From Verrucomicrobiota bacterium (lineage in GTDB: Bacteria; Verrucomicrobiota; Verrucomicrobiia; JAWXBN01): a DNA stretch of 35,726 bases. The position numbers and the translations under genes were made by a program. Below, in pieces: positions 3,301 to 35,627 of the stretch. Positions within the stretch are counted from its first letter, which is position 1; every line of letters starts with the position of its first letter. The notes below the pieces were generated by a model. That model worked only from the letters and a program-made list of their open reading frames with translations. It was not told the origin of the DNA and ran no database searches. Location of the stretch: contig JAWXBN010000026.1 of assembly GCA_034440155.1 (NCBI GenBank), forward strand, positions 1-35,726, written 5' to 3'.

Positions 3301-6300
3301 ATTGGTTCGTGGAGGATCTGGATCAATTTCGGCAGCACAAATTCAAATTAATACTAATGCTCTTTTATCGATAGGTTCAGGAGGTACATTGACAGCTGAT
3401 CGTATGGATATTTTTGGAAGGATTGTGGCACAAAATACTGGGAGCGAGATTTTACTAAATACATTTACTAAGGGTGGATCTGTCTCCGCGATAGCGATGA
3501 ATGGACTGTTTGGATCTCTTCTCCCAATAAATAACGGTTATCCAGCAACACCAGTCGCCACGTATACAGTAACAACTGTTGATGGTAATGGTTCTGGATT
3601 ATCTTTAGGTTATATTCAAACAGAAATATCGCCTGGAAATAATTCATATGATGTATTTTTACCTGTAACTGGAAAAGGATCCGGATATACTGAAGCCCCG
3701 ACCATTACTTGGACACCTCCTCCTGGTGGTGGGATTACCATTGAAACACAAGTAGTATCTTTGACTGATGGTCGCGCTATTACTTTGGGTACAAAAGGAG
3801 CATACGTGCCAGGAGCTGCTGGGGCATTATATTTAAACCAGCAAGACGTTGATAACATAAGTGCAGGTAATGTAAGAATTGGTGATACGACTTCTGGCCA
3901 AATCAGTTTGGCAGGGGATATAACTATTAGTGCTTTCGATACATTGTCGCTTAAAACGAGAGCTGATATTATAGGGACCGGAAGAATTACGGTAAATAAT
4001 CTAGATTTATTTGCTACGAAAGGTGTTGCGTTAACCGGTGAAAATAATGTGAACAATGTCACAGGTAATCTCCGACAGAATACCTTTACATTTAATAATG
4101 CCGGTAGTTTTGCTGTCGGTGCCTCAGGCATACAAACTGCAGCAGCTCAAATCAATATTAGCCTTACAACCACTTCTGGAGATATTACCCTCAACGGTCC
4201 TGTCAGCTCAGGAGGTGGGTCAGGTAGCATATTCATCAGAGCTAATAATGGTCAATTTGCGAATACATCATCAGGAACTTTGAGTGCAGGAGGTAGCACC
4301 ATAACCATAGAGTCTGATACGATCAATATCGGTGGCCAAATCAGTGCTAATGCGGGGATTTATTTGCGTCCTAATAATCCTGCATCTACTATTTCAATCA
4401 ATGATGCAACTGCAAATTATAACCTGACAACGACTCAGTTAATGCTCCTAGATTCGACTGGAGGAGTTGAGGTTGGCAGAACAAACGGAAGTGGGGCTAT
4501 TAGTATAGGTTCTCTTGGTCCAGTCAATTTGTCATCAGAGACTTATAATTTAACAGTATATGGGGGATCTCTGACCAACCAAGGGAATTTAACAATGGGC
4601 CCAACACAGCAATTTGCAGCGTTTGTTGATTCAATAGCCATTATCTCAAACATCACAGCACAAGGAGGGATTACACTAGCTCCGCGCTCGGATGCAGTAG
4701 GCATAGCTTTGAACGATGCAACGGGAGCTTTTAGTTTAACTGCGACAGAATTGGCTCAATTAACAACCAGCTCTGTTAAAATTGGCCGTGAGTCTGGAAC
4801 GGGGCCTATCAATATTGGATCATTAGGCACGATTAACTTAACAAATGCAAATTCATCTTTCCTTCTGTTTGGCTCGGGAAGTCCTGTCTCATTTAACTTC
4901 CAGAATCCGGCTGACACTTTCGCATTAAGTCAAAATCAGAGTTTTACCATATACACGGGTGGAAGTGTGTTGAACTCTGGCCTCAATCAAACAGACATTA
5001 CGATTGGCGGGCCAAACGGTACATTAGGAATAGGTAACTTTGGGGTTCTAGTAAATTCCAGTTCCACCGTAAACCTGCGCACTTCAGTGGCGAACCTGTC
5101 TGGTGCCAGGACCACAGGTACATTAACAATAGCTAATAATACAAACTTGAATGTTCAAGGAATTGTTAATTCTTTGAATAATAATATATTCTTGAGTGCA
5201 GCAAACGGCACATTAACAAGTTCGAGTAATGGAACAATCAATGCGGGGTCAGCCAGTGTCACACTGGAAGCAGGGTCTTTGAATTTGCTTAAAACTGTGA
5301 CAGGAACGAATTCGATCACCCTACAACCCTATACAAATAATATTTCCATTGGATTGAATGATACTAATGGGGCATTCCGATTAACAGCAGGGGCATTTGG
5401 AAATCTGATCACCACCAATGTGAATATTGGCAGGGTGGACGGAATCGCCCCGATCTACATCGGTGGTCTGGGGAGCATTAACTTGGCCAGCCGTGATATG
5501 AATGTGAATCTCTTGGGTGCCTCCAGTGATGTGGTATTTAACTTTACCGGAAATAATACCCTGACGTTACGGAATAACAAAACGATGGTATTTAATACCG
5601 GTGGGAATATCAGTAATCCAGGTGGATCGACAAAGGATTTAACGATCGGTGGAGTGGGTACAGTCATTATACAGAATGCCAAAAATGTGGCTATGACCAC
5701 AGCTTTAGGGCGTTTGGGTGGTTCGACTAATACAGGTAGCTTCCAACTGGTGAATAATACCTCTGGCCAATTTGCGGTAGTCGGGGATGTGTTGATTCAG
5801 GGTTCGGGTGCCTACGGGACAAATATCATTAGTGCCGGACAAGGGGATCTCTTTATTAATAGTGATGTGACTTCTACGAATGGAACTCTGAATCTCCTTG
5901 CGCAGAACGGTGTGCAGATTACCGCCGGAGTCGATATCAATACACAAGGGGGGGGCTTGCTTGTGAATGCGGATGTAGATGGAAATGGGGCAGGCCAGTA
6001 TAATCAAGCCGCTGGAGCCGCTGTGACAACAGGCGGAGGGACCAATGAGATCATTGCCTCGGATGTGGTTATATTGGGGACAATTAATGCGGGTGCCGGT
6101 GATATTGTTTTGAGGCCATCACTCAGTAATACGACAGTCAATGTAGGTAATAATAATGGGGGTAATTTCTATGTGAATAATGCTGAACTCGCTAATATCA
6201 CCTCCACAGGTAAAGTAACAATTGGTGATCGCGCGAATACGACAAACCTGATTTCCGACGGCGCAAATGCGGGTGCGCTTAATGTCCGTTTACGATCAAA

Positions 6301-8248
6301 GGGCAATATCAACGACAATGGTGGAGCGGGACTTAATACGACGGGTTATGTGGTATTAGATGCGGGAGGTTCCATCGGATCGACTACAACATTTAATATC
6401 AATGGATCACCTAACCTAACCGTCATCAGTGAAGGTGACGGAGTGAATGTGACTAGCGGCACGACATTGACAGATTTGGCTGTAAAGACAGATGGCACCG
6501 TCACAAACCAATCAATTGTGGATGGAGGAAATATCACCTATAACGTGGGTGAAAACGCATTAACGACTACAATAACCAATGCCTCTGTGGCGGTGGGGTC
6601 ATTAAATTTTGCTTATACGAATACGGGGGGATCAATTGTTATAAGTAATATTAATACTGGGGTCTCGGGGGATTTGGCCGTGAATGCCGCCAGTAATATT
6701 ACACAAACACTCAATGGTGTTTTGGAAATAGGGGGCAATAGCCAGTTTATCGCTGCGGGTGGTAGTGATATTATTCTGGACCAAACCGGCAATGATTTTG
6801 GAGGGGGTGTTTCCTTTACAAACAATAGCCCCGGACTTTTGAATAATATCAGTATTTATGACCAAACGGGTTTGGCAATCGGGCCGCTCCAGTTAACGAG
6901 TAACTTAACCGTGGTGGCCAACGGGATCACTAACTCAGGTGCACTTGTTGTCGGAGGTTTAGCTTCATTTGATGCAGGTGCCGGTAACGACTTGAATTTG
7001 AGCGGGTTTACTAACCAAATGGCAGGCCTTTCAATCGTGAATGCCAATAATGCATCAGTCTTAAATAATGGTTCCCTGAATCTGGCCGCCTCACAAGTGA
7101 CAGGAAATCTTAATGTAACCAATTTAAATGGAACAATTACGAATACCGGGATGTTGATTGTGGGTGGGAATTCCGTTTTTGTAGCGAGTGCCGGTCAATC
7201 CGTGTATCTGGGAAGTCCGCTGAATAATTTCTTTGGGACAGTCGGGTTTACTGGTTTAGGGGGGAATTTACAGAATATCCAACTCAACAATCTAGGGGCC
7301 ATCAATCTAGCGGCATTGGCTATTAACGGGAATTTGGCAGTGAATTCTGGTGGAGCCGTGACCCAATCGGGCGCATGGCAGGGATCCACCCTTTCACTAA
7401 CGTCCGCAGGGACAATTGTCCTGACTAATTCAGCTAATAATTTTGCGGCACTTGGCACGGTCAGCAGGGGGGGGGACTTTAGTTATACTGATACAGGTGC
7501 TCTGGCCATCAATGGCAATATTAATACCGGAAATACAGCAAGTGATGTTACGATTATTAGTTTCGGAGGAGCCATCTCATTAAATGCGCAAATTGCTGCA
7601 TCTGGTATTGGTAATGATATTACACTGGTCAGTGATGTGGGATTTATTAATTCAGCCGGAGCTACTGCCTTAAGCCCGACCGCAGGAAGCCGTTATCTTG
7701 TTTATTCAGTTTCTCCGTTGGCAAATACCTTGGGAGGTCTCACCCCAGTCTTTGAGCAATATAACCTCACTTATCCGACCACCCCGGCTGATACTGTAAA
7801 TAGCGGTGTGCTTTATTCCCTCGCTTCACCTCCTCCTATCCCCCCCACACCACCGACTCCGACACCGACTCCGACTCCTAGTCCTAGTCCATCATCTTCA
7901 TCAACCGCTATTAATCCGAATGCATTATTATTATCACAATTCATACAGAATTTCGCCTTTGTTAACGAATGGTATAGTGACCGTTTGAGGCCTAAAGATA
8001 GCCGTTACCTTGCTGATTTCTTTGGGTGGGCGCAGATTTACAGCCAGTTCAATAATAACATGCTTTACAATAATGTGGCCGGTGCGGGCAAAGGAAAAGT
8101 CATGGCGGGGTTTTCATCATTTAATCTCACATCAGCTGATAGTTACGATGATATGATGGATGAGGATGTGCGTAACCGCAAAAGAGTCAGAAAAACATCT
8201 GCAACCCAGACGACACCTCCGATCTTGCCTGATAACCGTTCCTTCTAG
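353..8248 (+). CDS. TpsA-type filamentous hemagglutinin-like exoprotein (2631 aa)
   Basis: This is a very large secreted adhesin-like protein, the substrate of the upstream TpsB transporter. The N-terminus has a signal peptide (charged residues, then a hydrophobic run around residues 18-37 ending near LLANPT). It is followed by a TPS secretion domain (about residues 40-240) with the family hallmark NPNGI at residues 119-123, preceded by INWQSFSI. The rest is a long Gly/Asn/Ser/Thr-rich beta-helix-type region of N-G-x-I/L repeats. One repeat class of about 105 residues recurs at 4391-6255. A Pro/Thr/Ser linker lies at about residues 2493-2518, then a C-terminal domain of about 110 residues with aromatic and basic residues that I do not recognise. 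The ATG at 353 is preceded by AGGA; ATG at 395 is an alternative that keeps a shorter signal peptide. The role is probably adhesion or cell-surface interaction; toxin activity is not evident. The middle of the gene is more AT-rich than its ends. Confidence 0.9.
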   Translation: MLSSLKNKAHQSGIMKMANTIFLICLGVFIPVFTLLANPTGEQVVGGGATFDRNNPNVLNITTGDRAIINWQSFSINQGEMTKFLQSGPGAAVLNRVIGGDSSAIMGALSANGQVFLINPNGIIFGNGAQINTAGFLASTMDVNNENFMAGGDLHFVGDSSAKVVNLGKIQADSGDIVMLARQVENHGQLNAPKGGVYMAAGKEVLLSEKGKDRVFVKTGYNGNSVVGDGVVNKGSINALHADLQAQGNIYAYAINNQGSIHATGVVKEGGRVKLTAGGIGNGAGNIINSGSIMADNSGEILVKGQNVTTTDSSVIQAKTTSTARKSKIKIESEDTTLVSGEINASSDTDKGGSIQITGVKVGAMGLRADASGQTGGGEILLGGDYQGKNPDVKNAQKTTVTADTKLIADAKGNGDGGKVVVWSDDTTKFYGSISARGGVDGGKGGLAEVSGKENLIYRGSTDLRAFDGTAGTLLLDPKNITVSGIPGAVNASYTNTVNNLFVNDPTLDYTFLASDIVSNLNLASMVLQANNDIIIATDVIATNGVFDLTLQAGRSIFIGQASDATIRLGGDFTAIANDNDIFVQTAQRDAGVGGFFMLPGSTIDTSLNAGDISIEVRQGAGAGQTSGNIVLANLNAGAGDVLVTNSGNTAGSSILMVSNNAQIVGNSVNFGINSAGAGSNTTGSIGMSTNPMIVTTSTNGVSAFGQGGGVHLTASRFSGAASTSVNLYVSSVVTTNGGNITLSALQPTTLLYINGPVSNTAGGITTLIADGMIVNTNVVSTDRINVMPANQARMILGSTNFVNGILSLSTSTLSKFITPTLQLGSSNVTSISFQSDITFVPTNVQTLTLKSGGGISSVANILTVSNFAFEANGSVNFGNLAPIGPLVDAYTIAGRVTGAASIAFANAGTNLVIGEVDGYKGLRTQNGSITVEQGNGVLTIAHTVTSPTDYDIDAGNSAVVFSMANPTNGVSSNGFFTLSSGALVRGGSGSISAAQIQINTNALLSIGSGGTLTADRMDIFGRIVAQNTGSEILLNTFTKGGSVSAIAMNGLFGSLLPINNGYPATPVATYTVTTVDGNGSGLSLGYIQTEISPGNNSYDVFLPVTGKGSGYTEAPTITWTPPPGGGITIETQVVSLTDGRAITLGTKGAYVPGAAGALYLNQQDVDNISAGNVRIGDTTSGQISLAGDITISAFDTLSLKTRADIIGTGRITVNNLDLFATKGVALTGENNVNNVTGNLRQNTFTFNNAGSFAVGASGIQTAAAQINISLTTTSGDITLNGPVSSGGGSGSIFIRANNGQFANTSSGTLSAGGSTITIESDTINIGGQISANAGIYLRPNNPASTISINDATANYNLTTTQLMLLDSTGGVEVGRTNGSGAISIGSLGPVNLSSETYNLTVYGGSLTNQGNLTMGPTQQFAAFVDSIAIISNITAQGGITLAPRSDAVGIALNDATGAFSLTATELAQLTTSSVKIGRESGTGPINIGSLGTINLTNANSSFLLFGSGSPVSFNFQNPADTFALSQNQSFTIYTGGSVLNSGLNQTDITIGGPNGTLGIGNFGVLVNSSSTVNLRTSVANLSGARTTGTLTIANNTNLNVQGIVNSLNNNIFLSAANGTLTSSSNGTINAGSASVTLEAGSLNLLKTVTGTNSITLQPYTNNISIGLNDTNGAFRLTAGAFGNLITTNVNIGRVDGIAPIYIGGLGSINLASRDMNVNLLGASSDVVFNFTGNNTLTLRNNKTMVFNTGGNISNPGGSTKDLTIGGVGTVIIQNAKNVAMTTALGRLGGSTNTGSFQLVNNTSGQFAVVGDVLIQGSGAYGTNIISAGQGDLFINSDVTSTNGTLNLLAQNGVQITAGVDINTQGGGLLVNADVDGNGAGQYNQAAGAAVTTGGGTNEIIASDVVILGTINAGAGDIVLRPSLSNTTVNVGNNNGGNFYVNNAELANITSTGKVTIGDRANTTNLISDGANAGALNVRLRSKGNINDNGGAGLNTTGYVVLDAGGSIGSTTTFNINGSPNLTVISEGDGVNVTSGTTLTDLAVKTDGTVTNQSIVDGGNITYNVGENALTTTITNASVAVGSLNFAYTNTGGSIVISNINTGVSGDLAVNAASNITQTLNGVLEIGGNSQFIAAGGSDIILDQTGNDFGGGVSFTNNSPGLLNNISIYDQTGLAIGPLQLTSNLTVVANGITNSGALVVGGLASFDAGAGNDLNLSGFTNQMAGLSIVNANNASVLNNGSLNLAASQVTGNLNVTNLNGTITNTGMLIVGGNSVFVASAGQSVYLGSPLNNFFGTVGFTGLGGNLQNIQLNNLGAINLAALAINGNLAVNSGGAVTQSGAWQGSTLSLTSAGTIVLTNSANNFAALGTVSRGGDFSYTDTGALAINGNINTGNTASDVTIISFGGAISLNAQIAASGIGNDITLVSDVGFINSAGATALSPTAGSRYLVYSVSPLANTLGGLTPVFEQYNLTYPTTPADTVNSGVLYSLASPPPIPPTPPTPTPTPTPSPSPSSSSTAINPNALLLSQFIQNFAFVNEWYSDRLRPKDSRYLADFFGWAQIYSQFNNNMLYNNVAGAGKGKVMAGFSSFNLTSADSYDDMMDEDVRNRKRVRKTSATQTTPPILPDNRSF
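4391..6255 (+). repeat. Degenerate ~105-aa repeat modules inside the TpsA exoprotein
   Basis: At least four copies of a module are visible. Each begins with a segment like I-x-L-N-D-A/T-x-G-A-F-x-L-T and continues to I-G-R-x-x-G-x-x-P-I-x-I-G-x-L-G-x-I-N-L. They start near 4391, 4701, 5342 and 6138; the last is the most diverged (GNFYVNNAELANITS, then VTIGDR). The spacings of about 310, 641 and 796 bases fit a basic period near 315 bases, with some copies too worn to recognise. A second shared element, resembling S-S-x-G-T-L/I-x-A-G-S-x-x-V/I-T-L/I-E, precedes copies 1 and 3. This suggests internal duplication that lengthened the beta-helix stalk. Confidence 0.65.
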
Positions 8249-12011: not shown

Positions 12012-13658
12012 ATGACAGCCGCTACTGAAATAAAACTGCAAGTCGATCTGGTCAATGTCCAGATAGACGGGCAATGGATGCAATTTCCCAAGGGGATGAA
12101 ATTGATCGAGGCCATTAAACAAGCCGGAAAATTTGTCCCTCATTACTGTTACCATGAGAAACTCAGCACTCCCGGTAACTGCCGTATGTGTATGATCGAA
12201 GCAGGCATGCCTAAAATGGGTCCCGATCGTAAACCAATCATGGGTGCAGATGGGAAACCTGAAATCGGTTGGATGCCACGCCCGATGATTTCCTGTGCGA
12301 ATACAGTAGCTGAAGGCATGGGCGTAAAAACTGATTCCCCACTCGTTAAAGATTGTCAAAATGGGGTTATGGAACTTTTACTCATTAACCACCCGCTGGA
12401 TTGTCCGATTTGTGATCAGGCCGGTGAATGCAAATTGCAGGAGTATTCGATCGAATACGGCACTGGTCAATCGCGTTTTGTCGAAAATAAAGTCAAAAAA
12501 CCCAAGGAAGTGGAGCTGGGGCCACGCGTGACGTTAGATGACGAACGTTGTATTCTTTGTTCCCGTTGTATCCGTTTCTGCCAGGAGATTGTCAAAGATG
12601 ATGTCTTGGGATTTGTTAACCGGGGCAGCTATAATACATTGACCTGTCATCCGGATAAAAAACTCGATAACAACTATTCCTTGAATACCGTGGATATTTG
12701 CCCTGTGGGGGCTTTGACCAGCACGGATTTCCGTTTCAAAATGCGTGTATGGTTCCTCAAAGAGACTAAGAGCATTTGTACAAGTTGCGCGACGGGTTGT
12801 AATACGATTGTTTCCACCCGTGAAAATGTGGTGTATCGCCAGGTGCCCCGTGAAAATAATGACGTAAACTCCTCTTGGATGTGTGATTCGGGACGGTTGA
12901 ATTATTCATTTACAGCGGAAAACCGTGCGAATGGGGTGAAAATCAAATCATTCAAAGGCCACAATGAGCCAACATTCATCGATGCATTTACAGGAATCGC
13001 CTCTGGACTGAAACAATTTGCACCAGAAGAAATTGCCATTATCGCATCGGGACGAATGACTTGTGAAGAGCTTTTCCTGACTAAAAAGCTGGCTGACGAT
13101 TTAAAAGTCACCCAAACCGATATTTATCCTAGGACCCAGTCTGCTGATGGTATTTTGATGGTGACAGACCGTAATCCTAATACGAATGGGGCAAGACTTT
13201 CCGGATTGATCACAGGTGAAGCCGGTGGAAATCTGGCGCAAATTGCGAGCAGTATTACCTCCGGAAAAATTAAGGCGGTCTTGGTTTTTGGCGAAGATTT
13301 ATTGGATATCGGTTTTAATCCTGAACAACTCGCCGCCCTCAAGCTTTTGGTGACTGTGTCTTCGCGCAATCTTAAAACAGATAACCAAGCTGATTTTATT
13401 CTACCCGGTCTGACTTGGGTGGAAAAACGCGGGACGATGATTAATCTCAAAGGTCGTATCCAGAAAATGAATAAGGCCATTGAACCTCTCGTTGCCGCTA
13501 TGGATGACTGGGAGATTATTCAGGGGATACGGACATCCTTGGGAGCAAAAGACTATTATGACCAAGCCAGTGTCTTTACGGATATGGCGGGAGAATGGAC
13601 CGCTCTCAATGGTTTGAACTATGGGAAAATCAGTGATTCAGGAGTTCAAATATTATGA
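12012..13658 (+). CDS. nuoG: NADH-quinone oxidoreductase subunit G (NuoG), short form of 548 aa
   Basis: This is the 75-kDa-type iron-sulfur subunit of complex I. Ligand motifs appear in order: an N-terminal [2Fe-2S] site (CYHEKLSTPGNCRMC and later SCAN), the His-ligated [4Fe-4S] site (HPLDCPICDQAGEC), and a further [4Fe-4S] site (CILCSRCIRFC with a later CPVGAL). There is also a complete CX2CX3CX27C set beginning CTSCATGC, the pattern of the additional N7 cluster found only in some bacteria. The remaining molybdopterin-oxidoreductase-like part is only about 260 residues, much shorter than in the roughly 900-residue E. coli NuoG, although the frame is intact. It starts 39 bases after nuoF, and its stop overlaps the nuoH ATG by four bases, implying translational coupling. 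Confidence 0.96.
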   Translation: MTAATEIKLQVDLVNVQIDGQWMQFPKGMKLIEAIKQAGKFVPHYCYHEKLSTPGNCRMCMIEAGMPKMGPDRKPIMGADGKPEIGWMPRPMISCANTVAEGMGVKTDSPLVKDCQNGVMELLLINHPLDCPICDQAGECKLQEYSIEYGTGQSRFVENKVKKPKEVELGPRVTLDDERCILCSRCIRFCQEIVKDDVLGFVNRGSYNTLTCHPDKKLDNNYSLNTVDICPVGALTSTDFRFKMRVWFLKETKSICTSCATGCNTIVSTRENVVYRQVPRENNDVNSSWMCDSGRLNYSFTAENRANGVKIKSFKGHNEPTFIDAFTGIASGLKQFAPEEIAIIASGRMTCEELFLTKKLADDLKVTQTDIYPRTQSADGILMVTDRNPNTNGARLSGLITGEAGGNLAQIASSITSGKIKAVLVFGEDLLDIGFNPEQLAALKLLVTVSSRNLKTDNQADFILPGLTWVEKRGTMINLKGRIQKMNKAIEPLVAAMDDWEIIQGIRTSLGAKDYYDQASVFTDMAGEWTALNGLNYGKISDSGVQIL

Positions 13659-15486: not shown

Positions 15487-17130
15487 TTAAGCAATTTGCC
15501 CTTGGATGAAGGCGAGCAATTTGCTGATGGGCAAACGTTCCTGTTTCATGCTGTCGCGGTGGCGGATGGTGACCGTATCTTTTTCACCGGTGAGCTCACC
15601 TTCGCGGACGCCTTCGATAGTTTCAAAGTCGATTGTGACACAGAATGGTGTGCCGATTTCATCCTGGCGCGCGTATCTTTTACCGATTGATCCGGCATCA
15701 TCATAAAAAGCATTCATATGGGGACGCAGCAGGTTTAATACTTCCCTTGTTTTGGAGACAAGCTCTGGCTTGTTTTTGAGTAACGGGAAGGTGGCGACTT
15801 TAATGGGGGCGACACGGGGATGAAATCTCATCACGACGCGGGTTTCAGTTTTGCCTTTATCATCAGTTACTGGTTCCTCATGGTAAGCATTACAAATCAA
15901 GGCTAGGACGAGGCGGTCGGCCCCGGCTGAAGGCTCGATGACATGGGGGACATAACGGGTTTTGGCCTCGTCGTCGAAATATTCCATTGATTTACCACTG
16001 TGTTCCTGATGCTGGGTCAGGTCGAAAGATCCACGAGCGGCGATTCCTTCGAGTTCCTGCGTGCCAAAGGGGAATTTGTAGAGGATATCCACGCAAGCAC
16101 GGGCATAGTGGGCGAGTTCTTCTTTTTTCTGCCAGTAAAGTTCAAGGGTATTGAGTCCAAGGCCGATTGATTCATACCATGCTAGGCGTTGTTGCACCCA
16201 GTAGATATGCCAAGCTTGCCAACCCCAGTTATTTTCGGGTTCGGGTAGGGGGGTATTTTCGTCGGCAGATGCGATATTCCCTGCGATTTGCTGGACGATT
16301 TCATCGGGTTTGATGAAAAATTCTAATTCCATTTGCTCAAACTCACGGCTACGAAAAGTAAAATTACGAGGGGTTACCTCATTCCTAAAGGCTTTACCGA
16401 CTTGGGCGATACCAAAGGGGACTTTCATCCGAGAAGTCTCAAGGACATTCTTAAATTGCACAAAAATGGCTTGGGCTGTTTCTGGACGCAGGTAGGCGAC
16501 ATTTTCTTCGCTGGCGACAGGTCCGACATAGGTTTTGAGCATCAGGTTAAACGGACGTGCTTCACTGAGTTTCGCCCCGCTTTCTGGGTGGAAATCATTC
16601 GTATTCTCGATTTTTTGCGAGGATTCACCCTCGAGTACGGGCTTTTCTAGACCGCGTTTCGTATAATACTGGAGGGCGACTTTGCGTGCACTTTCAGGGG
16701 GTTTCCCAATAGCGATGAGGACATGGAAAGACTCGAGCGACTCCTTACCAGAGCTTTCGCATTTTGCACCCGTGTAAGAGTAAGCGATACCGGAGGAAGG
16801 ATCGACTTGGTCGGCTCGAACTCGTTTATTGGTCAAGGTACATTCCCTCATGAGGTCGGAGAATGTGTCGACGTGACCGGAAGCTTTCCAGATAGAAGGG
16901 TGCATAATGATTGTGGCGTCGAGCCCGACAATATCCTCACGCCAATGAGTCATGCATTTCCACCAGTAATCTTTGACATTGCGTTTGAGCTCAGCCCCCA
17001 TCGGACCGTAGTCCCAGAATCCGTTGATTCCCCCGTAAATTTCACTGGATTGGAAAATTAAGCCCCGGCGTTTACACAAGCCGACGATCTTTTCCATCAA
17101 TTGCTGGTTATTTTTGGTATCTTCTGCCAT
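15487..17130 (-). CDS. glyQS: Glycyl-tRNA synthetase, single-chain (alpha2) type
   Basis: This class II aminoacyl-tRNA synthetase charges tRNA-Gly. The N-terminus has the family segment GLIFQSSEIYGGINGFWDYG. Motif 2 is seen in LRPETAQAIF and FRNEVTPRNFTFRSREFEQM, and motif 3 in EPSAGADRLVLALI; an anticodon-binding domain follows. This is the dimeric type shared with eukaryotes, archaea and some bacteria, not the two-gene alpha2beta2 type. I chose the ATG at 17130 (MAEDTKNN), with AAGAAG upstream, giving 547 residues. The longer frame to 17190 adds 20 residues without family similarity. It is a single gene, convergent with nuoI and divergent from the 17219 gene. Two copies of GCAAWTTGC fall within its last 40 bases (15491 and 15516). 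Confidence 0.96.
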   Translation of the reverse strand: MAEDTKNNQQLMEKIVGLCKRRGLIFQSSEIYGGINGFWDYGPMGAELKRNVKDYWWKCMTHWREDIVGLDATIIMHPSIWKASGHVDTFSDLMRECTLTNKRVRADQVDPSSGIAYSYTGAKCESSGKESLESFHVLIAIGKPPESARKVALQYYTKRGLEKPVLEGESSQKIENTNDFHPESGAKLSEARPFNLMLKTYVGPVASEENVAYLRPETAQAIFVQFKNVLETSRMKVPFGIAQVGKAFRNEVTPRNFTFRSREFEQMELEFFIKPDEIVQQIAGNIASADENTPLPEPENNWGWQAWHIYWVQQRLAWYESIGLGLNTLELYWQKKEELAHYARACVDILYKFPFGTQELEGIAARGSFDLTQHQEHSGKSMEYFDDEAKTRYVPHVIEPSAGADRLVLALICNAYHEEPVTDDKGKTETRVVMRFHPRVAPIKVATFPLLKNKPELVSKTREVLNLLRPHMNAFYDDAGSIGKRYARQDEIGTPFCVTIDFETIEGVREGELTGEKDTVTIRHRDSMKQERLPISKLLAFIQGQIA

Positions 17131-20868: not shown

Positions 20869-21791
20869 GTAAAGAGATTCCCCCATTTTTTGCGCTTGTC
20901 GGGCCGACCGCATCCGGAAAATCGCAAATTGCACTGGAATTGGCCAAGTTGATTCCGTTGGAGATTATTTCTGCTGACTCGATGCAGGTTTACCGGGGGA
21001 TGGATATTGGCACGGCTAAACCATCAGTTGAGGAACAAAAACTTATACCCCATCACACGATTAATCTGGTGGAGATAAACCATATTTTTGATACAGCCGA
21101 ATATCTTCGTCACGCGCAAATTGCAGAAGAAAAAATAGTTTCAAACGGAAAATTACCCCTATATGCAGGAGGAACAGGTCTCTATATAAGGGCATTGCGT
21201 TACGGCCTGGAAAGCAATTTGCCCCGGAATGACCATCTCCGTGAGGAGCTCGAAGATCTCCCGCTGGATGAGCTCCAAGAAAAAGTCGCCTTTTTCGGTG
21301 TACACGGACTGAATCAATCAGACTGGAAAAATAAGAGGCGCCTGATCCGGGCCGTGGAAATTTGTTCCCATGAAGGGAAGTCATTGGTCGAGTGCCGCAC
21401 GTCTTGGCAAGGGAAGGGAAGGTCAGGAATAGTTTTTTGTCTGGATCGAGACATGGATGAGCTGACTCGGAGGATTAACCACAGGATTGATCAGATGATG
21501 GGAGAGGGATTGGTGGATGAAGTGCGCAATTTGCTCGAAAAGGGGTTGATTCATAACCCAGTGGCGATGCAGGCAATCGGTTATAAGGAGGTCGTGACCC
21601 ATATAGAAGGGAAAGCATCCTTGGATGAATGTGTCTTGGAAATCAAAATAAAGACAAGGCAATTTGCTAAACGCCAGAAAACATGGTTCTCTAAGGAAAC
21701 GGATATGAAACTCATTACACTTGCGCCCGAGTCCTCAATGGCCTTGGCCGCTGCGCAAATTGCCCGGGATATTGAAAATTATGATGCATAA
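20865..21791 (+). CDS. miaA: tRNA dimethylallyltransferase (MiaA)
   Basis: MiaA transfers a dimethylallyl group to N6 of A37 in tRNAs reading codons that start with U. The P-loop GPTASGKS is at the N-terminus, followed by ISADSMQVYRGMDIGTAKPS, YAGGTGLYIRAL, RRLIRAVEI and a C-terminal QAIGYKEV. Length is 308 residues, normal for the family. The start is GTG at 20865, overlapping the receptor stop by four bases (GTGA), so translation is coupled. Its end overlaps the hflX start; hfq, which separates these genes in enterobacteria, is absent here. Six copies of the iterated nonamer GCAAWTTGC fall inside this one gene. Confidence 0.97.
   Translation: MSKEIPPFFALVGPTASGKSQIALELAKLIPLEIISADSMQVYRGMDIGTAKPSVEEQKLIPHHTINLVEINHIFDTAEYLRHAQIAEEKIVSNGKLPLYAGGTGLYIRALRYGLESNLPRNDHLREELEDLPLDELQEKVAFFGVHGLNQSDWKNKRRLIRAVEICSHEGKSLVECRTSWQGKGRSGIVFCLDRDMDELTRRINHRIDQMMGEGLVDEVRNLLEKGLIHNPVAMQAIGYKEVVTHIEGKASLDECVLEIKIKTRQFAKRQKTWFSKETDMKLITLAPESSMALAAAQIARDIENYDA
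20924..21763. repeat. Cluster of six GCAAWTTGC sites within miaA
   Basis: Exact copies lie at 20924, 21116, 21214, 21526, 21659 and 21755. Three read GCAAATTGC and three read the complement GCAATTTGC on the plus strand. They fall in two codon phases, encoding SQIA, AQIA, SNLP, RNLL, RQFA and AQIA, so a single conserved peptide does not explain them. This is the densest part of a window-wide family of 22 copies. Confidence 0.7.
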
Positions 21792-23061
21792 ACTCGCCCC
21801 AGTACCTGTCGAAAGAGTCGTGCTTGTCGGCCTCGTCCATGGTGAACACACCATTTGGGATGTGGAAGAGTCGTTGGAAGAGCTCGAAGAGTTAGCCCGT
21901 TCCGCCGGGGCGGAGGTGGTCGGGGTTTTCCACCAAAAACTGGATTATCCGAAAGCAGCTTATTATATAGGGAAAGGCAAGGCGGAGGAGCTGGCCGAAT
22001 ACTGCAAAAGTGAAAAAGTAGACATGGTTGTTTTTGATGATGACCTAAATCCGGCACAGGGACGTAACTTGTCTGAGATTTTTAAGGTCAAAGTCATCGA
22101 CCGCACAGAACTCATCCTCGATATCTTTGCCCAACGTGCCCGGACCAAAGAAGGACGTATCCAGGTGGAGCTCGCCCAGCTCCAGTACCTTTTGCCACGT
22201 CTGAAACGGATGTGGCTCCACCTTTCCCGGCAGGCGGGTGGCATCGGCGGCCGTGGTCCCGGTGAAACCCAGCTCGAGGTCGACCGTCGCCGCATCCAGG
22301 AGAAAATTTCCCGCCTCAAAAATGAACTCGGAGGGGTCCGGTCCACCCGCGCTACCCAACGCCATGCGCGCGAGAGAACCGGTATTCCCGTTGTCTCCAT
22401 GGTGGGTTATACCAATGCGGGAAAATCGACTTTGATGAATGCCATGACGGGGGCCGGAGTGCTCGCAATGGATAAACTCTTTGCGACACTGGATCCTACG
22501 ACCCGCCAATTTATCCTGCCCAATAAGCTCCCGATCCTTGTTTCGGACACAGTGGGATTCATCCGGAAATTACCCACGCATCTGATAGAGGCTTTTAAGG
22601 CTACTCTGGAGGAGGTCGTCCACGCTGACTTACTTTTACACGTCATTGATGTGACACATGAACATTTCGAGCAACACATGGAGGCGGTAGATGCGATTCT
22701 CCAACAGATCGAAGCTTGGGGGAAACCCACGATTCTAGTTTTTAATAAAATCGATAAACTCGAAAATAAATACCGCGTTGAGCAATTAGTCGAACATTAC
22801 CCAAACTCCGTGGCGATTTCGGCTAAGAACCATACCGGGCTGGATCAGCTTGCCGACGAGATTATGCGTCAATTCGCAGACCGTTCCCAGCGTTACCGCT
22901 TAAAAATCCCGATCGGTGATGCCCACGCTATCGCTGAAGTCCGCAGCAAATTGCCCATCCTCCATGAGAGATATACGAATAAGAATGCCTTTATCGAAGC
23001 CATTATTCCCGAACCCCTCCATCACCGTTTCGCTCATTTTATCGTCCAAGACAAAGAATAA
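21781..23061 (+). CDS. hflX: GTPase HflX
   Basis: HflX is a ribosome-associated GTPase that binds the 50S subunit and in other bacteria splits stalled 70S ribosomes. The N-terminal HflX domain includes GKGKAEELAEYCKSEKVDMVVFDDDLNPAQ and a glycine-rich turn GGIGGRGPGETQLEVDRRRI. The G domain has G1 GYTNAGKSTLMNA, G3 DTVGF, G4 NKID and G5 SAK. I chose the ATG at 21781 (a second ATG follows at 21784), where family similarity begins. This overlaps miaA by 11 bases. The longer frame from 21721 lies within miaA and is not supported. It is the last gene of the four-gene run and convergent with the polymerase gene. Confidence 0.96.
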   Translation: MMHKLAPVPVERVVLVGLVHGEHTIWDVEESLEELEELARSAGAEVVGVFHQKLDYPKAAYYIGKGKAEELAEYCKSEKVDMVVFDDDLNPAQGRNLSEIFKVKVIDRTELILDIFAQRARTKEGRIQVELAQLQYLLPRLKRMWLHLSRQAGGIGGRGPGETQLEVDRRRIQEKISRLKNELGGVRSTRATQRHARERTGIPVVSMVGYTNAGKSTLMNAMTGAGVLAMDKLFATLDPTTRQFILPNKLPILVSDTVGFIRKLPTHLIEAFKATLEEVVHADLLLHVIDVTHEHFEQHMEAVDAILQQIEAWGKPTILVFNKIDKLENKYRVEQLVEHYPNSVAISAKNHTGLDQLADEIMRQFADRSQRYRLKIPIGDAHAIAEVRSKLPILHERYTNKNAFIEAIIPEPLHHRFAHFIVQDKE

Positions 23062-23102: not shown

Positions 23103-25298
23103 CTAAAATAACTCTGGCTCTTTCTCGGTGACAGGATTCAGAAAGGGTTCGAACTTTTTGTAGAGTTCATCGAGTTTAGAGAGGTAGTAATCAATATTTT
23201 CATCGCGGGCTTCGGGATTCCATTCAGCCGCGAGCTTGGCCGCTTCAAAGACTTTGACCTTCTTGGTTTTACCGGTGATGTAATAGGAGACTTGGTCACC
23301 GGGTTGCAAATTGCGCCCGCTCTTGAGGGCGAGCTCATAGGCGGCGGCACGGTTACGGGCGCTGCCTGAGATTTTCTCCTGATATTTAACGAGGGAATCT
23401 TGAAGGGTGTCCGTTTTCATGAATATCTCGACGGGCCATTTCCCGGACGTCAGATTATTCCGGTATTCCTCAAGCAATTTGCTCACTTTAGCCGGTTGGG
23501 AGTGGAGCAGGGCGGAGACGGTTTCCTCCATAAAAGTCCGTTGGAATTTCTCGAGACCACGGGACTTCATCGAGGCCCCTTTAATCACGATGGAGTCGTC
23601 TTGTTTAAGTAGGGCATAGTTTTTCGCCTTGTAGCTGAACATAGCCTCGTAACGTTCATCAAACTCCACAGTGATCCCGGGAGGCAGGATTTTTTGGATA
23701 TCGTCTTCCAGTTTCTCAGCCCCGTCGGCGGGTGGGACAAAATAAATACCGTCCGTATCCAGTTCGATTAATTTAGCCCCCCGGTCTTTGAGCCAATTCA
23801 TCATCTCGGTAATAATCTCCCGGCCTTTGGCGGTGACTTCACTGGCAGCGGTGAAATCGGCAAAGTGGGCTTGCTCGAAACCGAGGTAACCGTAGAAGGA
23901 ATTGATCAGGATTTTAAACGTTTGTTGGAGGGCTTGATAATGATCTTTTTCCGCTTTGGTTTCTGCATTTTGCGCCAGTTTCTTTGAGTTTAGGCGGAAT
24001 TCCCGGAGGTCGATTAACATTTTTTTGAATATGCCCAGTGTATCTTTTTTCGGGACGTAATCAAAAGCCAGCATGACGGAGGGATACAGACTTGCGACGT
24101 CACAATGCCAGACATTTCGAGCGACTCCCTCGAAAAATATGTCGGTGTATCCACCAGGAAATCCCCGGGCCTCGGGTTCAAAAGGAATCGCTTTTTTAGC
24201 CTCAAAATATTCCCGGAGGAAAAGCGAATCGATCTTGGTGGCGTTCCCGCGGATAATCACATTCTGGAAATGGTAGGGGAAAATCTGGGCTTGGATAAAA
24301 TAGCTCTGGCTCAGTAACCCTGAAATCGCACGGGTTTCCCTCACATCGTCGAGGGCATAAGCCTTTGCTTTTTCAGGATCATCCTTGAATGTCTGGGCGA
24401 TTTTTGCGCCGTCGATATAGGTGCGGTCTTTGGAGGCAAATCCGAAATGTTTGGCGACTTCCTTCAAGGAAAAGCTTTCCAGCTCACGTGTACCGACATC
24501 ATAAAAGAGGACAAGGATATAAGTGTCGATGATGTGCCGGCCATAAATTTCGAACTTAGGATAATTCAGTGTGCGCTCGGCAATCTGTAGGCGGGAGGCG
24601 CGTGAGGATAGTGCACTGCCATCGCGGCCCCATTCGAGTTTGACTTTATGCCGTTTGGCCCGGGCTTGGATGTATGGTAGGTCAAAACGGAAGATGTTAT
24701 GACCTTCAATAATGTCAGGGTCTTTATCCTTGATGATTTTGTTGAGCCGTTGGAGCAATTTGCTTTCGTCCCCGTCAGTCAAGACCTCTTCCCAACCATG
24801 GTTATCCGAGACAGCGATAGCCAGAATGCGGTCATCCTCCTTTTGGGCGTTGGAGAATTCCTCCCCCGTGCTATTGGTCTCGATATCGAGCTGCATCCGG
24901 TGGAGACCCTCATAGAGCATCCCCTTAAAAAAGGTTTTCCCAGTGGCGAGGAGGAATTGGTGGATCGGGTCATTCAGTGCGAGGCAAGGGGCCTTTTGGG
25001 AGGTGAGCGATTTGCGCGCGTCCGAGTAGGTTTTCCAGTCAGGGAATGTCGCCAGGGTCGTGTAGGCGTATTCACCGCTAAAACTTTCCGTGTCGGCTTT
25101 CCCGGGGAATTTCCCCAAGGCACCATCGACGGTCCAGAGGAAGGGGGTGAATTCCACCTTGCGGCTTGAGAGGGTTTTACCATGCCGGGTGAATATCTCC
25201 ATTTCGTAGTCGCTGGCTTGTTCGACAGCGACGATGGCCTCCTCGGGATCTCGCCCGAAGAGCAATTTGTTCTGGGAAAAGGGGGAATCGTTTTTCAC
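23103..25298 (-). CDS. Family B DNA polymerase (731 aa)
   Basis: This is a DNA-dependent DNA polymerase of family B with intact proofreading and polymerase sites. Exonuclease motifs are DIETNS (Exo I), HNIFRFDLPYI (Exo II) and YALDDVRET (Exo III). Polymerase motifs are DVASLYPSVM (A), an NSFYGYLG segment (B), and ELDTDGIYF (C). The DTDG form of motif C is that of archaeal enzymes rather than the DTDS of E. coli Pol II. Length is compatible with a complete enzyme. It probably acts in repair or translesion synthesis; the replicative enzyme is expected to be family C. The start is GTG at 25298; no clear ribosome binding site. It is divergent from malQ and convergent with hflX, and has three GCAAWTTGC copies (23306, 23474, 24755). 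Confidence 0.93.
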   Translation of the reverse strand: MKNDSPFSQNKLLFGRDPEEAIVAVEQASDYEMEIFTRHGKTLSSRKVEFTPFLWTVDGALGKFPGKADTESFSGEYAYTTLATFPDWKTYSDARKSLTSQKAPCLALNDPIHQFLLATGKTFFKGMLYEGLHRMQLDIETNSTGEEFSNAQKEDDRILAIAVSDNHGWEEVLTDGDESKLLQRLNKIIKDKDPDIIEGHNIFRFDLPYIQARAKRHKVKLEWGRDGSALSSRASRLQIAERTLNYPKFEIYGRHIIDTYILVLFYDVGTRELESFSLKEVAKHFGFASKDRTYIDGAKIAQTFKDDPEKAKAYALDDVRETRAISGLLSQSYFIQAQIFPYHFQNVIIRGNATKIDSLFLREYFEAKKAIPFEPEARGFPGGYTDIFFEGVARNVWHCDVASLYPSVMLAFDYVPKKDTLGIFKKMLIDLREFRLNSKKLAQNAETKAEKDHYQALQQTFKILINSFYGYLGFEQAHFADFTAASEVTAKGREIITEMMNWLKDRGAKLIELDTDGIYFVPPADGAEKLEDDIQKILPPGITVEFDERYEAMFSYKAKNYALLKQDDSIVIKGASMKSRGLEKFQRTFMEETVSALLHSQPAKVSKLLEEYRNNLTSGKWPVEIFMKTDTLQDSLVKYQEKISGSARNRAAAYELALKSGRNLQPGDQVSYYITGKTKKVKVFEAAKLAAEWNPEARDENIDYYLSKLDELYKKFEPFLNPVTEKEPELF

Positions 25299-25427: not shown

Positions 25428-27129
25428 TTTCAGCAAAAAAAAGGCCGGACTCCTTGTACCGGTATTCGCCCTGAGAAGAACCGATGATCTGGGGATCGGG
25501 GACACTCAGGCAGTCAAAGAGACCATTGATTTTTGTAAGGGGGTAGGGGTAGGTGTCCTACAGTTGCTACCTATCAATGAGACAGGCGGGGATAATAGCC
25601 CTTACAATGCTGTCAGTGCCTTGGCTCTCGACCCCGTTTATATCACGATGACACCGGAACAAGTCCCCGGACTTGATCCTGCTCATCTCGCGCAAATTGC
25701 GACCCCGGATGTACTTGGACGGGTTCGTCCTGGCCCGGTGAATTATAGTTTGGTCAAACCCCTAAAACGCAAATTGCTCGAAGCGGCTTATGAAGGGTTT
25801 CTTTCCGGGGGCGACAATCAATCGCGCAAGGCATTTGATACTTTCAAAAATGAGCACAAGGATTGGTTAGGGGATTATTCACTCTTCAGCCTTTTATTGG
25901 AAATCTATCAGGGTGATGCGCGTTGGCCCCAGTGGCACTTGAATCACGTGTGCAGTTCTGCGACTCGGAAATGGATCGCTGCGAACAAGGATAAAGCGGC
26001 TCTAGAAAAGAGGGCTGACTTTTTTGCCTATGTCCAGTGGGTCGCATTCACGCAATGGCTTGAAATCCGAGCTTACGCCGATAAAAACGGGGTTCAGCTC
26101 ATGGGCGATATTCCTTTTGGCGTGAGCCGATACAGTGCCGATGTCTGGGGGAACCCAAAGATATTTGATCTCGATTGGTCAGGCGGAGCTCCTCCCGAGA
26201 CATTCTTTAAATGTGATCCTTTCACCGAAAAATGGGGCCAGAACTGGGGAATCCCCCTCTACCACTGGAAAGAAAATGAAGCCGAGGATTTTGCTTGGTG
26301 GAAAAAGAGGGTTCGCCTGACCTGTAAGGTCTTCAATCTTTTCCGGATCGACCATGTGCTCGGATTCTTCCGGATATACTCTTTCCCTTGGACACCTGAA
26401 AAGAATGGGGAATTTATGAATCTTACACTTGAGCAGGCGAAGGAGAAAACGGGCGGTCTCCTCCCCGGATTCCTTCAATATCCTGATGAACCTGTGGATT
26501 TGGCAGTGAAAAACTCCATTCAGGGATATCGTTTGCTCGATAAGATAAAACAATTTGCTGCGGAAGAAGGGGTTGTCGCCGAGGATCTCGGGGTGGTGCC
26601 ATCCTATGTGAAACCGATTTTAGAGGAGCTCGCTATTCCCGGTTTTACCATTCCGATTTTCGTGAGGGATGAGGAGACTCGTGAATTCCTTTCTCCATCC
26701 GATTACCCGGAGAAAACGCTGATTACCTTTGCCACCCATGATCATCCCCCGATGGCTTCTTATTATGCCGACATTGTGGCGCGTTGGAAAGGCCCCGGCG
26801 GACATGAGGCTTGGCTAGATATAGAACGCCTGATGAGACTCCTTGGCTTGGCACTCGGGAGGCAAGGACAACCTCCCGCCGAGTTTAATCCCCTCATCCA
26901 CGAAGCTATGATGAAGCTCATTTTGGATAATCATTGTTGGCTCGCGGTCTTTATGATTACCGATTTACTCGGGAATACCCAGAGGTTTAATGAACCCGGT
27001 TTGTCCGCGGATTCAAACTGGAGCCAGCGTCTGGATTTCAGCCTCGGCGAACTCAAAGCCCACCCGACCTATTCCGCAGTCGTAGAGCAATTTGCGCTGA
27101 TGGTAAAAGCCAGTGGACGCGCGGGTTAA
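25417..27129 (+). CDS. malQ: 4-alpha-glucanotransferase (MalQ, amylomaltase, GH77)
   Basis: It transfers alpha-1,4-glucan segments between maltodextrins in glycogen or maltose metabolism. Family motifs in order: LLPINETGGDNSPYNAVSA, LMGDIPFGVSRYSADVWG, FRIDHVLGFFRIY with the nucleophile Asp, VVAEDLGVVP with the acid/base Glu, and FATHDHPPM with the third catalytic Asp. The 570-residue length is that of a bacterial GH77 enzyme without large N-terminal additions. ATG at 25417 is the only in-frame choice, since a TAA lies five codons upstream. A strong ribosome binding site is lacking, but the short frame at 25392 may load ribosomes. No other glycogen genes lie nearby. It is divergent from the polymerase gene, with GCAAWTTGC copies at 25692, 25769 and 27087. 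Confidence 0.96.
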   Translation: MPIDFSKKKAGLLVPVFALRRTDDLGIGDTQAVKETIDFCKGVGVGVLQLLPINETGGDNSPYNAVSALALDPVYITMTPEQVPGLDPAHLAQIATPDVLGRVRPGPVNYSLVKPLKRKLLEAAYEGFLSGGDNQSRKAFDTFKNEHKDWLGDYSLFSLLLEIYQGDARWPQWHLNHVCSSATRKWIAANKDKAALEKRADFFAYVQWVAFTQWLEIRAYADKNGVQLMGDIPFGVSRYSADVWGNPKIFDLDWSGGAPPETFFKCDPFTEKWGQNWGIPLYHWKENEAEDFAWWKKRVRLTCKVFNLFRIDHVLGFFRIYSFPWTPEKNGEFMNLTLEQAKEKTGGLLPGFLQYPDEPVDLAVKNSIQGYRLLDKIKQFAAEEGVVAEDLGVVPSYVKPILEELAIPGFTIPIFVRDEETREFLSPSDYPEKTLITFATHDHPPMASYYADIVARWKGPGGHEAWLDIERLMRLLGLALGRQGQPPAEFNPLIHEAMMKLILDNHCWLAVFMITDLLGNTQRFNEPGLSADSNWSQRLDFSLGELKAHPTYSAVVEQFALMVKASGRAG

Positions 27130-31455: not shown

Positions 31456-32244
31456 ATGTCATACACATTCACCCAAACCCAAATCGACGACTTCCACCGG
31501 GACGGCTACGTCATTGTCCGCAATTTTTTTAGCAAGGAACAAATGGATCTCCTGCTCGAAGTAACCAAAAGTGACCTCGGCATTATCGGGACGGCATGGG
31601 ATATGCCAGATGCCAAAGGCCGTAAAAGTAAACTGAAACTTTGGGACTTTGCCGGGGAAGACCTCTACGGCATGTTTTCGCGTTGTGAGAGTATCGTTTC
31701 GAATGTCGAAAAACTGCTCAATAGTCCGGTTTACACATTTCATAATAAAATCATGATGAAAGAACCTCTTGTGGGCGGGGCGTGGGAGTGGCACCAGGAT
31801 TATGGGTACTGGTATAATGACAAAGTCCTTTCCCCTGACCTCGTCAGTGTCATGGTCGCCATCGACCGCGCTAATAAAGAAAATGGCTGCCTTCAGGTCC
31901 TCAAGGGTTCACACCGCCTAGGCCGGGTGAACCATGGGACAGTGGGGAATCAAGCTGGTGCAGATTTAGAAAGGGTGGAAGGTGCCAAAAAGCGTTTTGA
32001 CCTTGTCCATGTGGAGCTCGAAGCCGGCGATGCCTGTTTCTTTCATAGTAATACACTGCATAGCTCTGCGGCCAATGAATCCCCTAATCCCCGGTGGAGT
32101 ATGATCTGCTGTTATAATGCGGTTTATAACACCCCCTTTGACGGAGGCCAAAGCCACGGGGGGGATTACAGACCGGTTAAGAAAGTGCCTGATTCCAAAA
32201 TCCTTGAAGTAGGTGCACGCAGCGATTTTTCAGTGGCTAAATGA
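31456..32244 (+). CDS. Phytanoyl-CoA dioxygenase (PhyH) family Fe(II)/2-oxoglutarate oxygenase
   Basis: This is a non-heme iron, 2-oxoglutarate-dependent oxygenase. The N-terminus FHRDGYVIVRNFFSKEQMD is typical of the family. The iron triad is visible as H-x-D in WEWHQDYGYWY and the distal His in ACFFHSNTLHSSAANES; NPRWSM supplies the Arg expected to bind 2-oxoglutarate. Length is 262 residues. The substrate is unknown; PhyH-family members hydroxylate very varied small molecules. It is divergent from an AraC regulator that probably controls it. Its stop overlaps the convergent mnmA stop by eight bases. Confidence 0.9.
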   Translation: MSYTFTQTQIDDFHRDGYVIVRNFFSKEQMDLLLEVTKSDLGIIGTAWDMPDAKGRKSKLKLWDFAGEDLYGMFSRCESIVSNVEKLLNSPVYTFHNKIMMKEPLVGGAWEWHQDYGYWYNDKVLSPDLVSVMVAIDRANKENGCLQVLKGSHRLGRVNHGTVGNQAGADLERVEGAKKRFDLVHVELEAGDACFFHSNTLHSSAANESPNPRWSMICCYNAVYNTPFDGGQSHGGDYRPVKKVPDSKILEVGARSDFSVAK

Positions 32245-33358: not shown

Positions 33359-33421
33359 AGAAGTGGCTAATTTAACCGATCCCAGTGCAAATTGCAAAAT
33401 AAACTCTGGGGGACGGAGCAG

Positions 33422-33457
33422 AAAAAACGGGAATGCCGGATCTTTTTGAGGCATTCC
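33422..33457 (-). terminator. Rho-independent terminator for the Thr/Gly-rich gene
   Basis: On the minus strand GGAATGCC pairs perfectly with GGCATTCC around a 12-base loop, followed by CG and six T. It lies about 80 bases past the stop of the 33538 gene and upstream of mnmA, so it separates the two units. Confidence 0.75.
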
Positions 33458-33490
33458 TGCGAGGGTGATTGGAGGAATTTGCCCGAGGAG

Positions 33491-33525
33491 GGGATGTGTC
33501 CCTAATGCCGGGACAGTCACATCCC
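33491..33525. other. Strong two-part stem-loop between mnmA and the Thr/Gly-rich gene
   Basis: GGGATGTG (33491-33498) pairs with CACATCCC (33518-33525), and inside it TCCC (33499-33502) pairs with GGGA (33510-33513), leaving CAGT bulged. The 12-bp imperfect stem has no T-run. It lies just past the stop of the 33538 gene, before the terminator at 33422-33457, and could protect the 3' end or assist termination. Confidence 0.5.
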
Positions 33526-33537
33526 ATCGGTGTATCC

Positions 33538-35187: not shown

Positions 35188-35224
35188 GTTTCACCGCGGA
35201 CTTTTTGCCGTGAAACTTTTCTTT
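35188..35224 (+). terminator. Rho-independent terminator after the membrane protein gene
   Basis: GTTTCAC-CG-CGG pairs with CCGTGAAAC (two bases bulged) around an 8-base loop, followed by TTTTCTTT. It lies 23 bases past the stop of the 34473 gene. Confidence 0.7.
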
Positions 35225-35288
35225 ACCTCGGGACGATCTTTGCTGCACAATCCACGCCAATGCATTTTTTGGATAAATACCCATTGAG

Positions 35289-35627
35289 ATGAACCGGGCC
35301 GCGGCATACGGGGCCAGCCCTTGGCCGGACGAGCAGGCCGCACCTTTTGCGGCAGGAATTTTCTGCGCAAAAGCGGGGTTGATTGTGATGGTCATTTACG
35401 CCGCGTGCTGCGGGATGTTTTTTGACCGTACGGTCAATGACGTGAATCAATACACGCAAATTGCTTCACCCACCGCGCAAATTGCCCCCACGTACGATGT
35501 GGATGGGAGTACTTGGGTTTCCCCCGTCCCAGCATCCGGACAGGTGTCGTCGGGGACATTCACCTACGACGAGGAAATCCGGCTCAAGACCACGACTATG
35601 GGTAATACCAATGAGGAATCCCTCTAG
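35289..35627 (+). CDS. Hypothetical protein with one predicted membrane segment (112 aa), doubtful
   Basis: I do not recognise this protein. It would have an Ala-rich start, one hydrophobic segment (about residues 28-45, LIVMVIYAACCGMFF) and a polar C-terminal half containing a doubled element (TQIASPTAQIAPT). That element is created by two GCAAATTGC copies 21 bases apart. Overlapping frames on the minus strand (35174-35395 and 35223-35459) are also open, and the region is GC-rich, so open frames are expected by chance. If none is a gene, 35166-35726 is about 560 bases of non-coding sequence holding a terminator, an 8-bp hairpin (35344-35373), a 16-base palindrome (35422-35437) and the two nonamers. 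Confidence 0.35.
   Translation: MNRAAAYGASPWPDEQAAPFAAGIFCAKAGLIVMVIYAACCGMFFDRTVNDVNQYTQIASPTAQIAPTYDVDGSTWVSPVPASGQVSSGTFTYDEEIRLKTTTMGNTNEESL

Follow-up and report, generated by a model that had tools for sequence, protein, structure and literature searches.

A highly iterated, W-centered palindrome in a Verrucomicrobiota genome, most likely spread by a symmetric DNA-binding protein

Why does a nine-letter palindrome recur again and again along one bacterial chromosome? The question is raised by contig JAWXBN010000026.1 of the Verrucomicrobiota bacterium assembly GCA_034440155.1, a stretch of 35,726 nucleotides that was analyzed whole and is called the window here. The window contains the word GCAAWTTGC 22 times, compared with a mean of 0.51 and a maximum of 4 in 100 dinucleotide shuffles. 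An earlier note on this DNA had listed 22 start positions, every one of which was recovered by exact search, and had described a highly iterated palindrome, a DNA-level feature rather than one protein motif; the shuffles, the codon phases and the non-coding copies described below support that description. Judged from the sequence, a symmetric DNA-binding protein most likely drives the spread of the word, perhaps letting the cell recognize DNA of its own kind.

The 22 copies in the window are a local sample of a genome-wide population. The host genome (2,763,229 bp in 132 contigs, 97% complete, the window being one contig) carries 1522 copies of GCAAWTTGC, or 551 per megabase (Mb) and one per 1815 bp, and 7 copies of the reversed word. 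The enrichment is therefore not confined to the window, and the density earlier likened to that of HIP1, the highly iterated palindrome (HIP) of cyanobacteria, and of the uptake signal sequence (USS) of Haemophilus holds for the whole genome. Models were fitted to a sample of 934,117 bp that included the window (931,129 bp readable, 34% of the genome) and held 507 sites. Markov models of orders 1 to 4 predicted only 9.5 to 14.5 copies, with 9.5 at order 3, the order that had been proposed as a check. At orders 5, 6 and 7 the expectation climbs to 66, 275 and 470 because higher orders absorb the word itself. GCAAWTTGC is the top 9-mer in the sample both by count and by order-3 observed/expected ratio (53.6), and the next-commonest 9-mers overlap it and are less than half as frequent.

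A survey of 384 genomes of the class, in which the host is the only representative of its order, found 0 to 165 copies in the other 383 genomes, at most about 38 per Mb (calculated from rounded sizes); the host density is more than 10-fold above that of the densest of them. In other class genomes the word is often several-fold above its reversed control, so the control count of 7 understates the background and a comparison with those genomes is more telling. Of forty stretches from 40 class genomes, nine shorter than 9 kb were left out; the other 31 were scanned for palindromes, and none of comparable enrichment and density was found. Stretches of 20 kb reveal only very dense words. TCACSGTGA, considered as a similar word in one class genome, was rejected because it is not genome-wide there (98 copies in 2.4 Mb, and no more than 178 in any of 93 genomes). 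Literature searches for GCAAWTTGC as a whole word in four spellings gave no match, and Verrucomicrobia combined with "uptake sequence" returned one review on a different subject. No title among the matches listed concerned a palindromic uptake word, though such a paper may still have been published.

Could the word be a mere by-product, whether of dispersed repeats, of codon-pair bias or of a protein motif that recurs? For the bulk of the copies this is refuted, and as a general explanation it is hardly credible. To call genes in the sample, the longest non-overlapping open reading frames (ORFs) were taken, without a gene finder, which gave 766 genes with 421 coding sites. Synonymous shuffling within genes, another check that had been proposed, left 42.2 sites (standard deviation 5.7, maximum 52 in 30 shuffles), and the enrichment is not codon bias. 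Neither of the two results that the earlier note had named as refuting its observation, counts near those of shuffled genes or enrichment limited to the window, was obtained. A stricter shuffle, in which codons were kept within classes of first base and next base, still left 133.7 (standard deviation 9.1) of the 421 and to that extent favors a by-product, though it permutes little per gene. Repeats also contribute: at 93 of the 507 sampled sites a similar stretch exists within 150 bp, a repeated stretch present in at least 2 other places spans the word itself at 30, and one dispersed repeat bears paired sites. The other 477 sites lie outside such repeats. Coding sites occupy all three codon phases (38, 194 and 188), and there are 0.53 sites per kb of coding DNA and 0.60 per kb elsewhere.

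The word has altered the proteins of its host. Among 5344 tripeptides, QFA ranks first (106 observed versus 33.5 expected, a ratio of 3.16) and QIA second (198 versus 67.3, a ratio of 2.94). The word itself encodes 79 of the QFA and 109 of the QIA occurrences, and the remaining 27 and 89 are near the expectations; the excess is thus owed to the word, which has changed amino acids and not only codons. ANC was found 34 times, with 7.4 expected. A drive at the DNA level would be expected to have this effect, which is the opposite of a protein motif producing the word.

The conserved object is larger than the GCAAWTTGC core, with a consensus of about CynGmGCAAWTTGCkCnrG. When the flanks of 506 sites were symmetrized, position -6 was G at a frequency of 0.61 and T at 0.05, -5 was A or C at 0.70, -8 was C at 0.36 and -9 was C at 0.43, with almost nothing past about -10. 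Coding sites (420) and non-coding sites (86) give matching values, and each of the three phases shows the preference, which also argues against a by-product. A test for palindromic extension gave 0.61 for G-6/C+6 and 0.43 for C-9/G+9, and G-6 and C+6 occurred jointly in 66 of 180 sites, compared with 66.5 expected if they were independent. Independent, graded flanks indicate that the recognized object is a dyad of about 21 bp to which two half-sites contribute separately, as additive half-site contacts would produce.

Observed/expected ratios for words with 0, 1, 2 and 3 mismatches to the core were 49.5, 2.16, 0.82 and 0.89, respectively. Single changes were tolerated unequally: G1 to A gave 8.7-fold enrichment, an S center 13.9-fold, and every other change 0.57- to 2.9-fold. 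The excess of one-mismatch words in the sample (289) equals 0.57 of the perfect sites. It had been noted that no copy has G or C in the center, which is true of the window, where GCAASTTGC is absent throughout, but not of the genome, where the sample holds 49 S-centered sites against 507 W-centered ones. The flank of GCAASTTGC resembles that of the perfect word (G-6 at 0.66), but control words are not free of flank bias (0.50 for TCAAWTTGC from 44 readings and 0.39 for GAAAWTTGC from 31 readings), so this comparison is only suggestive.

The sites in the window, none of which has a strand assigned, are as follows, with encoded residues in parentheses.

4609..4617, GCAATTTGC, two-partner-secretion (TPS)/FHA-like adhesin gene at 353-8248 (QQFA)
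7588..7596, GCAAATTGC, TPS/FHA-like adhesin gene (AQIA)
12430..12438, GCAAATTGC, nuoG (CKLQ)
13238..13246, GCAAATTGC, nuoG (AQIA)
15491..15499, GCAATTTGC, end of the glycyl-tRNA synthetase gene (GQIA)
15516..15524, GCAATTTGC, glycyl-tRNA synthetase gene (SKLL), 25 bp from site 15491
20924..20932, GCAAATTGC, miaA (SQIA)
21116..21124, GCAAATTGC, miaA (AQIA)
21214..21222, GCAATTTGC, miaA (SNLP)
21526..21534, GCAATTTGC, miaA (RNLL)
21659..21667, GCAATTTGC, miaA (RQFA)
21755..21763, GCAAATTGC, end of miaA (AQIA), overlapping the hflX ORF (RKLP)
22946..22954, GCAAATTGC, hflX (SKLP)
23306..23314, GCAAATTGC, family-B DNA polymerase gene (RNLQ)
23474..23482, GCAATTTGC, family-B DNA polymerase gene (SKLL)
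24755..24763, GCAATTTGC, family-B DNA polymerase gene (SKLL)
25692..25700, GCAAATTGC, GH77 4-alpha-glucanotransferase gene (AQIA)
25769..25777, GCAAATTGC, GH77 gene (RKLL)
27087..27095, GCAATTTGC, GH77 gene (EQFA)
33387..33395, GCAAATTGC, mnmA ORF, N-terminal stretch ahead of the recognized domain
35456..35464, GCAAATTGC, small ORF at the contig end, where an 87-bp stretch matches the start of contig C36 at 97.7% identity
35477..35485, GCAAATTGC, small ORF at the contig end, 21 bp from site 35456

The two codon phases reported for these copies were confirmed, one reading Q[IF]A and the other [KN]L followed by L, P or Q. Site 33387 had been placed in probably non-coding DNA. It lies inside the MnmA ORF (32237-33520, minus strand), but at residue 42, whereas the recognized domain begins at residue 61; its coding status is therefore uncertain. 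The empty interval remarked on between 27.1 and 33.4 kb exists, yet it is ordinary: for a single chosen interval, given the density, the chance is 0.03, and the window has more than 20 inter-site intervals. The adhesin encoded at 353-8248 is a two-partner-secretion protein of 2631 amino acids with a TPS domain and DUF5649 repeats, and the polymerase gene at 23103-25298 (minus strand) encodes a bacterial family-B enzyme with an exonuclease domain.

What, then, could drive the dyad through the genome? The word is iterated to an extreme, has symmetric graded flanks, occurs in all frames and in non-coding DNA, and has rewritten proteins; together these observations argue that a dimeric protein recognizes the sequence and that this recognition is linked to a drive. 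To our knowledge, only uptake sequences and HIPs reach such enrichment among bacterial words. From these features, from the uptake-type genes present and from the four methyltransferase families without a match, we infer a binding protein, probably dimeric, and uptake as the driving process; our tentative preference is for a palindromic DNA-uptake signal, its dyad bound by the dimeric protein, with the drive acting on the DNA itself. A symmetric protein would recognize the dyad genome-wide, type IV pili and ComEC would import kin DNA bearing it, recombination would write the imported dyad into the chromosome, and copies would accumulate until halted by protein function. The fuller proposal, of a palindromic signal for self-DNA in an order unrelated to Pasteurellaceae and Neisseriaceae, with a dimeric receptor and a proteome rewritten at QIA and QFA, is held more tentatively. 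If true, it would mean an independent origin of uptake specificity, indifferent to site orientation. Of the genes that such a process would use, DprA is present, as are four PilT/PilU-type ATPases over the cut-off in two tandem pairs (L066:11260-13513 and L035:8848-11312); pilus ATPases were located via E. coli HofB and YggR and scored with NCBIfam.

Palindromes are typical methyltransferase targets, and the word might instead be a restriction-modification or methylation mark, such as the site of an orphan methyltransferase. HIP1 offers a precedent in passages of PMC4390886. However, the DNA-methyltransferase families PF01555, PF00145, PF02384 and PF02086 gave 0 matches in the host genome, other families (e.g., PF07669) not having been searched genome-wide, whereas the same searches matched in 11, 10, 13 and 4, respectively, of 14 control genomes. 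When the sampled ORFs, which cover a third of the genome, were scanned for motifs, six candidates emerged, none of them convincing as a DNA methyltransferase; by eye, the best resembles RsmD. Usual methyltransferase sites are also shorter than a contiguous 9-bp core with preferences to +/-10. A methylation mark is therefore disfavored and appears very improbable. Three roles had been suggested for the word, and of these the modification-linked site is the disfavored one; an uptake mark and a DNA-binding-protein site both stay candidates, which the analysis did not separate.

Biased repair or mutation (mismatch repair, strand-break repair or similar) could also yield a HIP-like word whose sites are functionless, perhaps with an unrecognized modification. 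The word is palindromic and indifferent to coding, its enrichment is limited to words with 0 or 1 mismatches, and its 551 copies per Mb fall inside the HIP range of around 500-2500 per Mb given in part of PMC4390886. Deviations at the ends are common, as for HIP1 in the same portion of that paper, with the host word tolerating changes at the center even more, and a repair model is proposed there by Elhai. We nevertheless consider this origin unlikely. HIPs co-occur with methyltransferases of matching specificity, according to the same excerpts, whereas the four families are without a match here and none of the six candidates is convincing. The flanks extend to +/-10, beyond the HIP extensions in Table 3 of PMC4390886, and graded flanks suit binding better than a fixed enzyme site. 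Because the methyltransferase hallmark of HIPs is missing in the four families searched, uptake would be left as the best-supported process, with machinery for it present.

A further alternative, possible but doubtful, is a chromosome-architecture or recombination site, where a dimeric protein (nucleoid-associated, Chi-like or repair-linked) would bind the dyad and selection would act on the number and spread of sites. A symmetric, graded 21-bp dyad suits a dimer, coding and non-coding densities are similar, sites clump locally, and an 18.4 kb clustered regularly interspaced short palindromic repeats (CRISPR) stretch has no site; pairs of this dyad also occur on phage contigs, which makes it probable that there are proteins able to bind it. 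Known architecture and Chi words, however, are enriched several-fold rather than 50-fold and are usually oriented. If selection acted on site number alone, proteins would not have to be rewritten, as they were at QFA and QIA, and no protein was identified. E. coli Chi, with 1008 copies observed and 151 expected in the available part of PMC1939737, falls far under the roughly 50-fold enrichment seen here.

The site-free CRISPR stretch may equally count in favor of uptake. This type III-B (Cmr) locus, L053:1-18387, in which Cmr6 was identified by family search, has 0 sites; the chance of this is 4.5e-5 for that stretch alone, uncorrected for choice among stretches. At a contig end, L051:3-956 encodes a tyrosine recombinase, integron-integrase-like by eye, and its 6.5 kb stretch is also without the word. 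The most sites per gene in the sample were found in an OGG-like DNA glycosylase gene (6 in 909 bp; 150 of 398 bits, below the NCBIfam cut-off), and xseA has 5. The DNA uptake sequences (DUS) of Neisseria favor genome-maintenance genes, and the OGG-like gene and xseA may likewise speak for uptake. On contig C101, four sites lie in about 330 bp at the RuvA gene, named by eye without a family search. For a test of functional bias, 356 genes of 250-600 codons were considered, 48 with at least 2 sites and 232 with none, and 20 random genes from each group were scanned against NCBIfam. Any family match at 1e-10 was found for 19/20 genes with at least 2 sites and 12/20 without sites (Fisher p 0.02), and an equivalog over the cut-off, counted by hand, for 11/20 and 8/20 (p 0.53). 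Evidence for functional bias of site-bearing genes is weak, and the site-bearing set is longer (mean 408 versus 364 codons).

Several observations weigh against uptake. The USS and DUS are not palindromes in the sections of PMC1939737 consulted, and excerpts of PMC12616744 likewise describe the USS as not palindromic. By the account in part of PMC7811141, coding DNA holds fewer uptake words than expected and their spacing is fairly even, whereas the host word is about equally dense in coding and non-coding DNA, does not avoid genes, and is clumped: 107 non-repeat site pairs in the sample are less than 250 bp apart (61 expected), and 63 pairs genome-wide are 85-115 bp apart (26 expected). Uptake words also show a gradual fall with mismatches in portions of PMC1939737, whereas enrichment of the host word stops at one mismatch. 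The apparent bias of sites to repair genes is a trend noticed after the fact. ComEC is present as a 793-amino-acid frame that scores 119 of 190 bits, below the NCBIfam cut-off, as does a PilB-like ATPase whose gene is cut by a contig end (561 of 676 bits). ComEC and DprA are in any case widespread, being found in 10 and 11 of 14 control genomes, and no uptake receptor was identified, pilins, PilQ and ComEA not having been sought genome-wide.

A fixed or helical spacing was considered and rejected. Spacings in the sample peaked at 96-98 bp, which had suggested a wrapped complex, but part of the peak came from a dispersed repeat, and periodicity of the spacing was not significant (best power 6.4 versus a 95% null of 7.7). 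Among 50 of the 63 pairs listed, 19 were outside the sample and seemingly non-repeat by eye; 4 of these 19 were 96-99 bp apart, compared with 2.5 expected if uniform over 85-115 bp. The hairpin-rich dispersed repeat (L057:233-842) bears word pairs 96-99 bp apart, and stretches similar to it by eye are present on contigs C4, C46, C77 and C101.

The dyad also occurs in viral contigs (L128-L163). These are 36 phage stretches that vary widely in base composition and hold 2-6 copies of the word each; all carry paired dyads, often GTGCAAWTTGCAC, with starts 23 bp apart in 9/36 stretches. In ten stretches viewed by eye, the dyads were seemingly near replication or regulatory genes; they could be operators or iterons.

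Few genomes have highly iterated words, and there is still debate about what HIP1 does. A palindrome as abundant as HIP1 or the USS, in a genome without a match to four methyltransferase families, would uncouple iterated palindromes from methylation, which is the leading clue to HIP1. If the word is an uptake signal, it shows a separate origin of biased uptake in another lineage, one that uses a symmetric reader. In either case the word is a clear natural example of protein sequences being changed by a drive at the DNA level.

Among known systems, Chi is likewise an over-represented short chromosomal word, but unlike the host word it is asymmetric and oriented. Its observed/expected ratio in E. 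coli is about 6.7-fold by the figures in part of PMC1939737, compared with about 50-fold for the host word. HIP1 (GCGATCGC) and the alternate HIPs of cyanobacteria are closer: in passages of PMC4390886 they are short dominant palindromes at hundreds to thousands per Mb, and they share palindromic extensions and many end deviations with the host word. Unlike HIPs, the host word has an AT-rich, odd-length core with a W center and graded flanks to +/-10, its genome has no match to the four methyltransferase families, and the 383 other class genomes are without comparable density. Cyanobacteria lack NuoF and NuoG, both of which the host genome encodes, unlike cyanobacterial HIP hosts. The USS and DUS occur about once per 1-2 kb, like the host word, and share with it flank preferences beyond the core, enriched one-mismatch words, and a genome with ComEC, DprA and type IV pilus ATPases. 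Findlay and Redfield reportedly found in 2009 that uptake sequences alter protein composition, a further likeness. Copy numbers are also similar, with 1465 and 1892 uptake words per genome in the portion of PMC7811141 available. The host word differs from the USS and DUS in being palindromic, hardly depleted in coding DNA and clumped, and its lineage is probably outside Pasteurellaceae and Neisseriaceae, the bearers of those sequences. As an analogy, the likeness to HIP1 and to uptake sequences stands.

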